From Bacteroidales bacterium KA00344 (lineage in GTDB: Bacteria; Bacteroidota; Bacteroidia; Bacteroidales; Bacteroidaceae), in the NCBI GenBank assembly GCA_001552765.1, contig KQ959459.1:1-64000 (forward strand): DNA of 64,000 nt, in the 5' to 3' direction. Numbering within the stretch: the first letter of the stretch is position 1; the number at the start of each line of letters is the position of its first letter. The notes below the pieces were generated by a model. The model searched no databases, was not told the origin of the DNA, and saw nothing but the letters and a program-made list of their open reading frames with translations. Below are positions 19,039-24,290 of the stretch, one piece after another. The translations under genes and the position numbers were made by a program.

Positions 19039-22000
19039 CTAATCGGTAATCACTAGTTTTCTACCTGTCCTGTCGGCAGTGTTTTTTCCGATGATGATAT
19101 ATACACCCGGTACCAATCCCAATTTGGGGAATGTTCTTTCATTTGACAGACTGATTTCTTTCACCAAAGTTCCTGCAAGGTCATAGATAAGGAAATCTCC
19201 TGACAATGTTTCGCTATGCAGGTCAATGCTTGTCTTAATGTCTTCAAACATGGTAGCCTTGGTATTCATCAGCACGAATCTATTCTGATTCATACGCTTA
19301 CCATCTGTTGTAAACGTATAAGAGAGCGTGTCAGCATCAAACGGGATGATCATCCTTGATTGACAGTCTACCAATTTCAGGTTATCATATTGATCAAGAT
19401 CTTTTTTGGTCGCCTTGATATAATACGTACCCTCCTTGGCGATCTTCGTCGTAATGTTTGCCTTGGTAATGTCATTGGTTGTATTGACTTGCCAAATACC
19501 ATCTTTCGTTGTTGAATAGATGGCTGTCGGCATCATTTCACCACCAAGTTTACTACCATCCCAACCATTGTCGAATCCTTCTGTCGCATTTTCTGATTCG
19601 CAAAGCCACATTTGGTCGCCGGTATTCTCGCCCAAAAGAGTAATCTTCACAAAACCAACAGGGCGGCTGCTTGTCATAAACAGAGGTTTGGCTCTTTGTG
19701 GAAGCGATGCTGTCGTCATGACATTATTGTTATAACTCAATTTCACCTCTGTCGGAGTGGTGCTGTAAACGGTTTTGTCCTTCGTATATTTGAGGAGGAA
19801 GCCCTGCATAGAAGGAATTTCATTCATGTCAAGTATTGCTGCTATATCGATTGGAACAGCCGTGTAGGTGCCAGCACCCTTTGCATCTTTATTGCTTAGC
19901 GTAGCAGTCCAGTCTTTTCCACTTCCTGTGTTATAGAGATAAACCGTTTTTTCTAAGTCGTCTGGGAATGTAATCGAATTGATTTTGATTGGCGCGGTGA
20001 ACGAATTGCCAAACAAATTTTGTCCTAATCCCCATCTAACGAACGACTCTTCGCCATTTGCACCATCCACCTTGGCAGCCTCACGCGTGAGTTTCAATGT
20101 AACATCGTTATAATTGAGATAGCCTCGCAGTGGCATTGTTCTCGGTTCGTCAAGACGGATGGAATATGCCTTGAACGCATGCATCGTTTCACCTTTTGCT
20201 AAGTTTCTAAACTTATGGTAAAACTCTTTTTCAGCATTGTGCGCCTCATCATAAACATAGAGTCTTGACTTTGGGAATTGTGCTGCCGACATTTCTGCAA
20301 ACGGTATTCCGAAGAATTGGTCGGTCGAATTGATGTGGATTGTTCTTCCGAACGTCGGCGAACCAGTGAGGTTGTCCGTCCAAGTCTCCTTTACGGCCTT
20401 GGTAAGTACGTTCATCTGAACTTCTGCATAAATCTTGTCTTTCTCTACTCCTTGATAGCGTGCGACAAATGTTCCGTTGGCCTTGCCATTAGAGCCTGCT
20501 TCTATTTTCAGGCGCACGGGGGCATATTTACCGTTATTATCTTTCTGATGTTCAAATCCCACAGTTGAGGTTTTTACATATAAAGCGGAGCCTTGAGGAA
20601 TAACCATGGCCTTTTGGCTTTCATTAACGAGATTTGTTGCAGTGAAATTCAACGGCAGTCTTCCTGTGCCGGTCAGTCGGCAATCGTTCACCGCTGCATG
20701 GCCGTTGTTGTTTTCCTCGGTTGCAAAAACAATGTCTTCCCCTTCAGTAGGTACTTTGTTAGCTGTCCAGTTAGACGCAACGCTGAAGTTGTCACCATTG
20801 TTCTCATCGGTGCTTCCCATCCAGTAGTTCTTTTGCTCATTTCGAGTAACAACAAATTTTACCAATCTTGTTCCTCCCGAAGAACCCGAACATGAGGTGT
20901 TGCCGGTAAACTGAGTCCGGATTTCATAAGTATATGTTCCTGGCTCCGTGAAAGTAACGTAGATATTATTACCGTTTTGCTTCAATTCGTTCTTTCCGTT
21001 CGTGATATCATACCAAGCAACATCATAAACGTGGTTTGAAACGGGGAGAGAAACTTGCCATGGTTTCATACCATCAGTAATGTCAATATAGACATTATCT
21101 TTAACCTCATTACCTTTAGGAGTTTTCACAATGACTTGAGGAAGGTCAGCAGTCGTCAGGTCAACAACCTTTTTCATGTTGCAACTGCCTTCAGATCCAT
21201 AAACAATTTTAACAGCGTAGATGCCTTTTACAAGATCTTTCCACACCACATTTGCCTGTTCAGTTGAATGCGCTGTGTACGTTTGGATGGCAGATCCTTG
21301 CGGATTTCCGTTTGCATCTGCTTTATAAAGTTCATACGTAGCCGGCATGGTAACTGTCTTTCCACTTTGTAAGGAAACAGAAATATTACCTTTCTTCGCA
21401 TTAACATCACAAGATGCTCCAGTCACGTCAAAAGCATTCACCTCGCTTTCCTTAAAAACAAACTTATATGATTTTGCCCAATAGGGGTCAGGCTGATCCA
21501 CAGGCTTCCAAGAAGCGGTGCCATCATTCTCATGGATGTTCATGACCTTATAAGGAGAATATGTGCGTTTTTCTTTTGCAATTGCCGAATAAACCTCTTC
21601 GTCTCCAGGAGACCATATATCGGCACCGCTAGAAATATAGGGATAATAGCTGATGCCGAAATAGACGTCGTCTTTCAAATCACTCGGTTTGTCAGTACTG
21701 TAAGTCCAATCGTCGGAAGTCGAGCTTTTAACTTTTTGGGTAACATATCCATACTGCAAAGTTGATCTGGAATACAAATCCTTGTCCCTAGTAGTCCCAA
21801 AGTCAAAATTCACCTTGTTGCTTTGGTTATCACAACTGTATTCAACCAAAACTCCCTCGCCATACCCATGGTCTCTTCTCAGCTTATAAGTCATCAAGTT
21901 GTCGGCTTCAATTGTGATCTCTGTGTCTTTTGTTCTTCCGCATTGGTCCTTTAGCGTAAACACATAATCACCTGCCGGCAAATCTCCGATGTTGTAGTGG

Positions 22001-23640
22001 CCGTTTGGCTTGGTGAAGTCTATCGTCTGCGGGAAGTTAATTGTTTTTTGATATTCGTGGTCGTCACCAAAATCAGTGATCATAAAGTTCTTCTTGCCAT
22101 CAGGCCTGTTTACAATCACTTGGAAAGGACCTTCCAAGTTGATAGTAGAGAAAACGATGCCGGCTGTATTGCCGTGTATACCCAAACTCTTTCTTTGAAA
22201 TGTCCTGTAGCGCGGTTGTGAAGCATAATAAGCCATATCCGGCTTGGGATCACTAAAAATAAATTCGCGTTCAAAATCTGTTTGCGGATTACCTGTGGAA
22301 TAAACCATCTTGTACACACCAGGCCCAGGTAAATAGAATGTGAATCTTTTTTCGATATCAAATTGTTCTGTCCACATGGGGACCTCCATCAAAGGCTCAG
22401 AAGGATAGGTATGGTCGGCGTTTCGCTTATAGATTTTTGCATTGCGATGCTCCTCGTCCATAAAATAATAAACATGCTTACCACCCAAAGACTTCCTTCC
22501 TTCAAAACTATAAGACAATTTATAAGATGTATCTTTCCATCCACAATCATCTGTCGGTGTTCCATACGTCCATGCTCCGAGCCACAACATATCCTTCACA
22601 GTAGTGTCCCAAAAATAGAAATCTTTTGTTTTCTCTCCTTCGCAAAGCTGTGTATATTTTATATCATATCTTCGATCCTTGATGTCTAACTTTCCGTTGT
22701 CAAAGGGGATTTTAAAGAAATAACGATAATAACCACTCCAAAATTTATGGGTATAAGCGGAGGCAAATTCGAGCGGGTACCACTCTCCATCATTATCCTT
22801 AGCCCTAATTTTAGCCGTTTTCACCAACATATCCAATGCTTCCTGCAAGCTCTTCTCGTCATCGCATGCAATCTTAAACGACGTATAATAGTCGAATGTG
22901 TCCTTCCCCGTACGCTTGACAAAATAATTGGATCCATCTGGCCAGAATTCAGGAGAAACAGACTGAATAGAATTTATGGAAGCAGATGCTTTCCTTCCCT
23001 TGGCATCGGTCACCTCGACCGTTACTTTGTCATCTTCTACTAAATTGTCGATCACCCAACCCCTATCGGAGGTACTTTCTTTAGTCCTGATATCGCTTCC
23101 TCCTCTATAATGTGTAATAGTTGCTTTGTAACTAAACGGTTTTGCACCTCCGGCCAGGTCAACATTTACATATCCCAGAGAGCCGCATGTCACATTCTTT
23201 TTTGTCAGGGTTAATTTCGGCGCCGGTGGTTCTGGTAATTCCACCACCTGAATGTCATGCAAATGGGTGTGTTCGCTGCCATCTGTTTGCTGGAAAAACA
23301 CCTTATAGTCGCCTGCCTTGACGTTGTTCCATGTGATTTCCCAAACGTTGGGATTTGTGGATTTTTGTGTGAGCACATTGTCCAACAACTGTGTGGTTTC
23401 ACCCATCACCAACTTGTTTTCATCCGATGCCAAACGTAACTGCGCCTGTCCGTTGGGAGCTTCGTTGTCTTTGAGCGTAACGGTCAGCGTGATGCTGCTG
23501 ACTTTGTCGCCTCCCACATCCACTTTCGACACCTTACTGTTCGAAGAAGTCACGTCCACATACTCAAAAGCCGACATGGGCAAGCAGAAGACCAAGAGCA
23601 TGAAGATTATAGATGCGGTTATGTGTAAAAACTGCTTCAT
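19039..23640 (-). CDS. Very large T9SS-exported surface protein
   Basis: A 1533-residue protein starting at the ATG at 23640. The signal peptide is KQFLHITASIIFMLLVFCLPMSAF. The C-terminal ~75 residues (GDFLIYDLAGTLVKEISLS, LGLVPGVYIIIGKN, GRKLVITD) form a type A T9SS sorting domain. The protein therefore passes the outer membrane by type IX secretion and is anchored or released. The middle holds several Ig/SprB-like modules (SLGYVNVDLAGGAKPFSYKA, SCDVNAKKGNISVSLQSGK, GMKPWQVSLP), then a segment opening WMGSTDENNGDNFSVASNW as seen before passenger domains. No enzyme motif was found. Adhesion or gliding-type surface function is an inference. Confidence 0.85.
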   Translation of the reverse strand: MKQFLHITASIIFMLLVFCLPMSAFEYVDVTSSNSKVSKVDVGGDKVSSITLTVTLKDNEAPNGQAQLRLASDENKLVMGETTQLLDNVLTQKSTNPNVWEITWNNVKAGDYKVFFQQTDGSEHTHLHDIQVVELPEPPAPKLTLTKKNVTCGSLGYVNVDLAGGAKPFSYKATITHYRGGSDIRTKESTSDRGWVIDNLVEDDKVTVEVTDAKGRKASASINSIQSVSPEFWPDGSNYFVKRTGKDTFDYYTSFKIACDDEKSLQEALDMLVKTAKIRAKDNDGEWYPLEFASAYTHKFWSGYYRYFFKIPFDNGKLDIKDRRYDIKYTQLCEGEKTKDFYFWDTTVKDMLWLGAWTYGTPTDDCGWKDTSYKLSYSFEGRKSLGGKHVYYFMDEEHRNAKIYKRNADHTYPSEPLMEVPMWTEQFDIEKRFTFYLPGPGVYKMVYSTGNPQTDFEREFIFSDPKPDMAYYASQPRYRTFQRKSLGIHGNTAGIVFSTINLEGPFQVIVNRPDGKKNFMITDFGDDHEYQKTINFPQTIDFTKPNGHYNIGDLPAGDYVFTLKDQCGRTKDTEITIEADNLMTYKLRRDHGYGEGVLVEYSCDNQSNKVNFDFGTTRDKDLYSRSTLQYGYVTQKVKSSTSDDWTYSTDKPSDLKDDVYFGISYYPYISSGADIWSPGDEEVYSAIAKEKRTYSPYKVMNIHENDGTASWKPVDQPDPYWAKSYKFVFKESEVNAFDVTGASCDVNAKKGNISVSLQSGKTVTMPATYELYKADANGNPQGSAIQTYTAHSTEQANVVWKDLVKGIYAVKIVYGSEGSCNMKKVVDLTTADLPQVIVKTPKGNEVKDNVYIDITDGMKPWQVSLPVSNHVYDVAWYDITNGKNELKQNGNNIYVTFTEPGTYTYEIRTQFTGNTSCSGSSGGTRLVKFVVTRNEQKNYWMGSTDENNGDNFSVASNWTANKVPTEGEDIVFATEENNNGHAAVNDCRLTGTGRLPLNFTATNLVNESQKAMVIPQGSALYVKTSTVGFEHQKDNNGKYAPVRLKIEAGSNGKANGTFVARYQGVEKDKIYAEVQMNVLTKAVKETWTDNLTGSPTFGRTIHINSTDQFFGIPFAEMSAAQFPKSRLYVYDEAHNAEKEFYHKFRNLAKGETMHAFKAYSIRLDEPRTMPLRGYLNYNDVTLKLTREAAKVDGANGEESFVRWGLGQNLFGNSFTAPIKINSITFPDDLEKTVYLYNTGSGKDWTATLSNKDAKGAGTYTAVPIDIAAILDMNEIPSMQGFLLKYTKDKTVYSTTPTEVKLSYNNNVMTTASLPQRAKPLFMTSSRPVGFVKITLLGENTGDQMWLCESENATEGFDNGWDGSKLGGEMMPTAIYSTTKDGIWQVNTTNDITKANITTKIAKEGTYYIKATKKDLDQYDNLKLVDCQSRMIIPFDADTLSYTFTTDGKRMNQNRFVLMNTKATMFEDIKTSIDLHSETLSGDFLIYDLAGTLVKEISLSNERTFPKLGLVPGVYIIIGKNTADRTGRKLVITD

Positions 23641-23787
23641 TATTGTCATAAAATTAAATCGGAGTAAAAAACAATCCGATGTGTTTATGGTTTTGTTATG
23701 GAGAAATAAATGATTATTTTTACTGCTTGTACATAGTGGTCTCCTCCGCTACCTACCACAGCATCATAGCTTGAGCCAACAACCTGT

Positions 23788-23952
23788 TTAGGGATTGGGC
23801 CATTTCCAACTTTGGGAATCATCGTCCCATACCATTCCGTCTTGATAATCATCGCCCTGCACCTCTGCATCGTTCTGTGATCCTATATTCGGACCAACAA
23901 TTTGCAAAGGAAACAGCATGATAGATGGTTTGAAATACTGTTTACGCTTCAT
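23788..23952 (-). CDS. Small 54-residue peptide upstream of the T9SS protein
   Basis: ATG at 23952, TAA at 23788-23790. It opens MKRKQYFKPSIMLFPLQ and ends in an acidic, tryptophan-bearing tail (GDDYQDGMVWDDDSQSWKWP). The opening matches the MKKxxYxKP pattern of short peptides that occur many times in Bacteroidales genomes, often next to exported protein genes. It has no hydrophobic signal sequence. It is followed by 147 bases and then the large T9SS gene in the same direction. Function is unknown. Confidence 0.6.
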   Translation of the reverse strand: MKRKQYFKPSIMLFPLQIVGPNIGSQNDAEVQGDDYQDGMVWDDDSQSWKWPNP

Positions 23953-24290
23953 TTTATTTACTTTTAAGACTGTTTCTGAACAGCCTATTTATATGAATAC
24001 AGGCAAAGGTACGAATAATTATAAAAATTACAAAAAATATTATATAAATTAAAACAAAATTAAAGGTTAATACAGTCAAAGGAGTTAAGACTATACTGTT
24101 TCAACCCTCTATAAGAAGGAAACGTATAGTCTTAACTCCTGACTTCTTATCAGACGAACAGTAGATTCTTATATATAATACCGTTCGGTTCTATAGTCTA
24201 TCCTTGGAACAAGTAACTTTGAGTTGTGGCTGTATACTTCCTCTAACACACACACAAGCTGAACTCACCATTCATGTTCCACTTTCAAAT
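23953..24290. other. Non-coding region with a long hairpin
   Basis: 338 bases without a gene between the small peptide and the NfnAB fusion, both on the minus strand. The right half is unremarkable. The hairpin at 24081-24139 is listed separately, and the bases 24003-24060 are almost pure A/T, suiting a promoter region for the peptide and T9SS gene. Confidence 0.6.
24081..24139 (-). terminator. Long hairpin downstream of the NfnAB fusion gene
   Basis: GGAGTTAAGACTATAC (24081-24096) pairs perfectly with 24124-24139. After a one-base bulge, five more pairs form (GTTTC with GAAAC), leaving a 16-base loop. On the minus strand only a TTT follows, so it may be a weak terminator or a structured site upstream of the T9SS unit. 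Confidence 0.5.

Follow-up and report, generated by a model that had tools for sequence, protein, structure and literature searches.

The peptide gene P0001 lies in a 64,000-nucleotide stretch of contig KQ959459.1 from Bacteroidales bacterium KA00344, referred to here as the window. An earlier note on this DNA had described, at positions 23788-23952, a 54-residue frame with an MKRKQYFKP-type opening and an acidic, Trp-containing tail. The frame is there, on the minus strand and read from 23952 to 23788; on the plus strand the same interval is interrupted by an internal stop. The predicted product has an acidic, Trp-bearing C-terminus and a pI of 4.4. After a gap of 138 nt, the minus strand continues with a gene (19039..23649) for a giant exported protein of 1536 residues from the first ATG, or 1533 from the Met of a signal-peptide-like start that we place by eye at residue 4. 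The 1533-residue length claimed for this protein thus holds for the second start; its description as cargo of the type IX secretion system (T9SS) stands less firmly, as the type A sorting tail (19048..19215, minus strand) is a weak match to the TIGR04183 profile, scoring 21.1 bits in one scan and 23.4 bits in a genome search against a cut-off of 23. The host has the PorU sortase (NF033707, 890 bits at G000:C61).

Upstream of P0001, a promoter-like site of the form TTTG-N19-TACCTTTG (24004..24034, minus strand), starting 82 nt ahead of the ATG of the peptide, is a match by consensus only, to that of Bacteroides-type promoters. The full motif is present in three of six upstream regions (the window at -82, G046 at -95 and G191 at -82), its -7 half alone in two paralogues, and nothing of it in G029; the whole window, on both strands, holds seven full motifs. 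No motif of this type lies between peptide and giant, and a sigma-70-type scan returned sites at chance level only. The spacer between the two genes (23650..23787, minus strand) has no Rfam match and no terminator-like site, and folds into a modest hairpin just ahead of the giant (z-score -1.77); an attenuator or riboswitch at this position was rejected on these grounds. Extra constraint on the spacer was considered and dropped, since orthologue spacers are very similar but the recombined giant has equally similar blocks. A small frame placed like this might matter through its translation, not its product, setting the expression of its neighbour by attenuation before the giant, or by coupling or termination where other members follow cargo genes. 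That the peptide is the first gene past the promoter-like site and that a hairpin directly precedes the giant would agree with such a role. However, the fold is weak and terminator-like sites are lacking, the spacers of the two paralogues read are unlike, most members read (among the matches listed) stand after a cargo gene and not before one, and the amino acids themselves are under selection, all of which makes a purely regulatory frame quite improbable.

Orthologues of the peptide have 76-89% identity to it, and paralogues 39-48%. Named relatives come from Prevotella sp. BV3P1, a Prevotellaceae MAG and two Hoylesella timonensis records, and the host genome itself carries a P0001 paralogue (46-48% identity) that precedes a paralogous giant. 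The earlier note had made its case depend on conservation of the frame over synonymous change in relatives, and the frame is so conserved: six pairs drawn from four orthologues give pN/pS values of 0.20-0.52 for the P0001 frame and of at least 0.72 for the two alternative frames at the locus, and the window compared with G046 has a surplus of synonymous change (Fisher P about 0.0015, from rounded counts). Because the surplus of silent change occurs in the peptide frame only, we rejected an in-frame upstream extension of the giant across the peptide, for which L023 and L024 have an open frame; this extension is also countered by the giant's own signal-peptide-like start. The 54-residue frame is very probably a real gene kept by selection, and translation of its product is predicted. 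A spurious frame without a product, as its length below the usual cut-offs might suggest, is scarcely credible in the face of the codon-position pattern, the conserved paralogues and family, and the 344 to 28 excess of family matches described below.

In a search of 200 genomes of the genus, the N-terminus of the giant was found at seven places in four genomes, each time with the peptide just upstream (7/7), and P0001-type peptides at nine places in six genomes. One of the two peptide matches without a giant lies inside a longer unrelated frame (L029), and the other (L030) is a more distant member preceding a lipoprotein-like gene. A profile search of 398 genomes of the genus added three close members, two in G310 and one in G231, which likewise precede giants of the same kind, in one case with a masked stretch in between. 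The orthologous peptide-giant pairs occupy differing genomic surroundings. The giant genes (19039-23649 in the window, and its orthologues) are mosaics in which blocks of 0-5% and of 20-28% difference alternate between species, a pattern that suggests frequent recombination. Differing surroundings and recombined blocks are what one would expect of a mobile cassette, in which peptide and giant travel together and are linked by co-inheritance only. We think this very unlikely, as the link to an exported neighbour holds across many genes with a common C-terminal tail, described below, whose peptides differ.

The first clue to a wider family came from weaker profile matches, short MKKxYxxP frames that immediately followed genes whose products end alike at the C-terminus. 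The pattern ATGAARAARNNNTAYNNNNNNCC, searched in 60 genomes of the genus with the reversed pattern as control, gave 344 matches versus 28 reversed ones, with at least one match in 59 of the 60 genomes; peptides of this kind do recur, as had been claimed. Among the matches listed out of the 344, we examined 131 distinct ones in 130 loci (30 + 100) and kept 111, leaving out before any counts four long genes, five frames shorter than 35 residues and 11 recurrent frames (MKKRY(L/F)(A/P)PS, recurring across genomes) that were set apart by eye as something else; one of the 111, L057, apparently represents a separate conserved type. These 111 listed peptides, hereafter YxxP peptides, are 38-86 residues long (median 62) and, on average, carry a net positive charge over the first 25 residues before turning strongly acidic. 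About 20 N-terminal residues are common to them (MKKxYxxPx[TIM][EK][VI][VIL]x[LMI]); the sequence is free thereafter, and no common residue was seen in the C-terminal parts. Among the listed peptides, a pI below 5 was found for 97/111 and a Trp within the last 20 residues for 81/111; 107/111 have no hydrophobic run of more than five in the first 35 residues, and a lipobox-like stretch occurs in one (1/111). Nine of 11 chosen pairs of similar members have a pN/pS of 0.45 or less (the other two, 0.87 and 1.28). No convincing Pfam or NCBIfam match was obtained for any of 112 peptides, P0001 and the 111 from the matches listed; the earlier note had said that such peptides have no assigned function.

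P0001 is a variant member, with one extra residue ahead of the Tyr compared with the usual MKKxYxxP. Its K4, Y6 and P9 are invariant in the alignment of 112 peptides, 111 of which were picked from the matches listed by that very pattern. The loose form M.{2,8}Y..P is fitted by 4 of the 292 ATG-started frames of 30-119 residues in the window, and among these four only P0001 has Lys or Arg after the Met. It shows all the traits by which we recognise the family, namely the K, Y and P of the opening, an acidic C-terminal part and an adjoining exported protein, and very probably belongs to this large unannotated family of tiny acidic peptides of Prevotella-type bacteria. Recurrence in Bacteroidales as a whole, as the earlier note had it, was not borne out: of 29 loci read at the level of the order, 28 came from other families, and none of these 28 held a clear member. 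Members of the YxxP group seem to occur mainly within the taxonomic family of the host. L057, L202 and L225 point to a different-looking family of small acidic peptides, MKK(L/V)Y(A/D)DP, of about 50 residues and present in several families of the order; L202 and L225, both from the order-level loci, have the common opening but read as the L057 type.

The genes beside these peptides are of one prevailing kind. Among the matches listed, 83 of the 111 peptides start within 150 nt after the end of a same-strand gene (median 21 nt), and 80 of these 83 preceding genes end in a common C-terminal tail when scored with a model built from the other half. The three tail-less neighbours are an Mfa_like_1 gene (L116), a gene similar by eye (L098) and one whose sequence is cut (L067). 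As controls, 84 of the 112 other gene ends listed in these loci were scored, and the tail was found on four, all near a peptide but farther off or on its other side. For the converse test, loci were chosen by the tail alone; with seven of the 95 tail frames too close to an end to be used, 88 could be evaluated. Among these listed tails, 52/88 are followed within 150 nt by the start of a Y..P peptide under a looser peptide definition (M.{2,10}Y..P, 30-130 residues), versus 0/29 other genes in the same loci and 2/87 on the antisense strand; the tails used were high-scoring among those listed, their profile, made from peptide-linked tails, may favour peptide-linked ones, and they include near-duplicates (L334 and L339 yield one peptide). 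Over all loci, a peptide stands beside 3/159 non-tail genes, one of them the fimbrillin-like gene of L116 and the other two chance-like. The earlier note had placed such peptides near exported proteins and called for a collection of them and a test of association with T9SS genes; both the proximity, mostly to proteins with a T9SS-type tail, and the association proved to hold. That P0001 is a gene and family member, and that it is linked to exported proteins, is in our judgement nearly certain.

The association has exceptions. Within 150 nt, 36 of the 88 listed tail genes have no peptide, including two with one at 163 and 172 nt, and a peptide is thus not required beside every cargo. Some peptide-less tail genes are immediately followed by a different gene whose start resembles an export signal. 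In the host genome, the 12 genes with a TIGR04183 tail (11 of them over the cut-off) all lack a peptide in the 150 nt downstream; the two giants alone are accompanied by one, on the upstream side. The position described in the earlier note therefore stands for the window but not as a general rule, being a minority arrangement in a family whose usual place, among the members read, is immediately downstream of the cargo gene. The host genome also contains a tail gene with a YxxP peptide (L353, 8612-15157), where the adjoining same-strand large gene ends, by eye, in an AraC-like segment.

Peptides and tails also vary together. The excess of pattern matches correlates with the number of tails across 61 genomes of the family (rho 0.54) and across the PorU-positive ones (rho 0.40). 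Within genomes, peptide similarity tracks tail similarity (rho 0.29 versus a shuffled mean of 0.08, P 0.001), which may be merely joint duplication; between genomes it does not (P 0.13). We also considered that the YI..P segment of the peptide copies the last hairpin of the tail, and discarded this mimicry after it failed a profile comparison (hhalign 1.7%).

The common tail, with the consensus end Y.L.G..V..P.KG.YI.NGKK...K, is largely missed by existing models: TIGR04183 reaches E 0.01 on only 8 of the 83 tails (among the matches listed), and conversely one of the 12 TIGR04183 tails of the host passes the short-tail profile at E 0.001. The tail profile nevertheless aligns with eleven TIGR04183 tails of the host genome (hhalign probability 94.9). 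Among 61 genomes of the family, the tail occurs in all 43 that are PorU-positive and in one of the 18 that are PorU-negative, with at least 1569 tails in the former, a count that may take in a few classic type A tails, versus one in the latter; PorU was the sole T9SS component searched for this co-distribution. Searched against solved chains at E 1, the tail profile gave five matches, three of which (4kca, 7jvi and 8bbl) had an E of 0.016 or lower, and a structural model of the 85-residue tail is confident over about its last 35 residues. T9SS tails track the core components of the system with few exceptions, according to a review (PMC10202324). Its co-occurrence with PorU and its alignment to the type A tails lead us, by sequence comparison, to regard the tail as very probably a T9SS sorting signal that has gone unlabelled, divergent but type-A-like. 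An example is L059:1221-1475. If the assignment is right, at least about 36 genes per PorU-positive genome of the sample carry a sorting tail mostly missed by TIGR04183. In a study on the rumen, T9SS use by Segatella and Xylanibacter was judged by TIGR04183 genes (PMC11107044); conclusions drawn in this way might then need revisiting.

Not every member adjoins T9SS cargo, and the claim of an exported T9SS partner holds chiefly, but not throughout. The family pattern exceeds its control by 145 to 16 in the 43 PorU-positive genomes and only modestly, by 26 to 16, in the 18 PorU-negative ones. Of ten loci read from PorU-negative genomes, three have family-like peptides, and the gene that follows is fimbrillin-like at L254, lipoprotein-like at L240 and of the radical SAM type at L250. 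G010, a genome of the genus without PorU, has three members (L056, L098 and L099) and no tail gene in the stretch examined. Members beside tail-less genes and in PorU-negative genomes indicate that the partner need not be T9SS cargo. Two loci have the appearance of biosynthetic clusters. At L350 (7376-9351, G063:C39), which resembles a RiPP cluster, three tandem YxxP peptides with similar second halves (VCE.E.Q and GPPGIF parts) are divergent from a radical SAM/SPASM gene (TIGR04133, 511 bits against a cut-off of 425, scanned as L197). At L351 (7586-9163, G565:C7, a PorU-negative genome), the frame immediately ahead of a radical SAM gene encodes a 148-residue peptide that opens with MKKxYxxP.

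These two loci raise the question whether the whole family consists of RiPP-like or otherwise processed precursors. The N-terminal 20-25 residues would then serve as a leader, recognised in trans by one maturase or peptidase-transporter common to the members; the product would be the variable acidic part, either set free or joined to the surface protein expressed with it. A conserved N-terminus with a free C-terminus is the expected design, and 38/111 peptides (among the matches listed) have a GG, GA or GS step after a hydrophobic residue at positions 16-32. However, a motif scan of 350 sequences, many of which span only 2-5 kb and some of which lack a peptide, detected a radical SAM gene in just two, and none in the window or next to the tail-linked members read. 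Nor did the C-terminal parts show any residue in common. No NCBIfam lasso or GG-type precursor model matched at E 0.1 save lasso_cyano with one member (1/112, E 0.08), and the lasso leader motif beyond YxxP is found in 0/111 of the listed peptides; membership of the lasso peptides themselves was rejected on this evidence. Such precursors would, moreover, leave the tie to tail genes and PorU unaccounted for. We regard a precursor role as possible, if on the whole unlikely. The AlphaFold2 model of P0001, with no notable helix or strand, pLDDT 84-89 over the first 20 residues and low values for the remainder, is compatible with this reading and with the accessory role proposed below, and no relative among solved structures was obtained for P0001 at E 1.

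The leading reading, to which we assign a tentative probability of about 0.4, is that the peptides are cytosolic, cargo-linked accessories whose N-terminus docks on a common factor. A peptide of this kind would be translated next to its cargo off a common mRNA and would remain in the cytosol, acting as an escort or adaptor. The conserved N-terminus would dock on one shared factor of the cell, and the variable, acidic, Trp-bearing part would serve the particular cargo of that peptide, either prior to export toward the T9SS or in the course of it. What suggests this to us is the combination of a common N-terminus with a free acidic C-terminus, the lack of an export-type stretch, the position at cargo genes and the T9SS dependence of the common setting. 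Applied to the window, we hypothesise from sequence that P0001 contributes to the expression or secretion of the giant, as the earlier note had hinted.

A related proposition joins elements of the two preceding readings: in Prevotella-type bacteria, many T9SS surface proteins might each be paired, by way of the sorting tail that present models mostly overlook, with a dedicated leader-bearing micropeptide, and the occurrence of the same opening beside radical SAM genes raises the idea that such a peptide, perhaps in modified form, may travel with its surface protein or decorate it. This would be a new layer of type IX secretion; we rate it as unlikely. If micropeptide and cargo are indeed paired, many tiny unannotated genes would become testable partners of Prevotella-type surface proteins, and the choice or handling of cargo before the T9SS would gain a concrete new candidate. 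Among the papers listed by searches of an open-access library, none dealt with these peptides or with this tail, and none reported the strong tie of the family to T9SS-type surface proteins.

Several known systems invite comparison with the accessory reading and its rivals. PorP/SprF-type proteins are outer-membrane proteins. For type B cargo of the T9SS, an accessory of this type is usually encoded beside the individual cargo, as stated in the same review (PMC10202324). YxxP peptides are also encoded beside individual cargo, but they are acidic, 38-86 residues long and without a Sec-type stretch. The short tail resembles the type A tail (TIGR04183 / PF18962) in that it aligns with it (hhalign 94.9%) and co-occurs with PorU, and differs in having its own consensus end and in the few listed tails (8/83) that the type A model reaches at E 0.01. 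The leader motif of lasso precursors, given as YxxPxLxxxGxxxxxTx in a published account (PMC6856326), shares with the YxxP peptides the Tyr-x-x-Pro in a short N-terminal, leader-like part, whereas its further Gly and Thr occur in 0/111 of the listed peptides. The TIGR04133 radical SAM/SPASM system ('rSAM_w_lipo') is comparable in that, at L350, three tandem peptides with the same type of opening adjoin such a gene, and differs in that the window and the surroundings of the tail-linked members read showed no radical SAM gene by motif scan. Type III secretion chaperones are small, acidic, often encoded next to their cargo, and form folded dimers of about 15 kDa. P0001, in contrast to these dimers, is predicted to be without clear structure; compared by description, the YxxP peptides are like the chaperones in being small, acidic and encoded beside the cargo.
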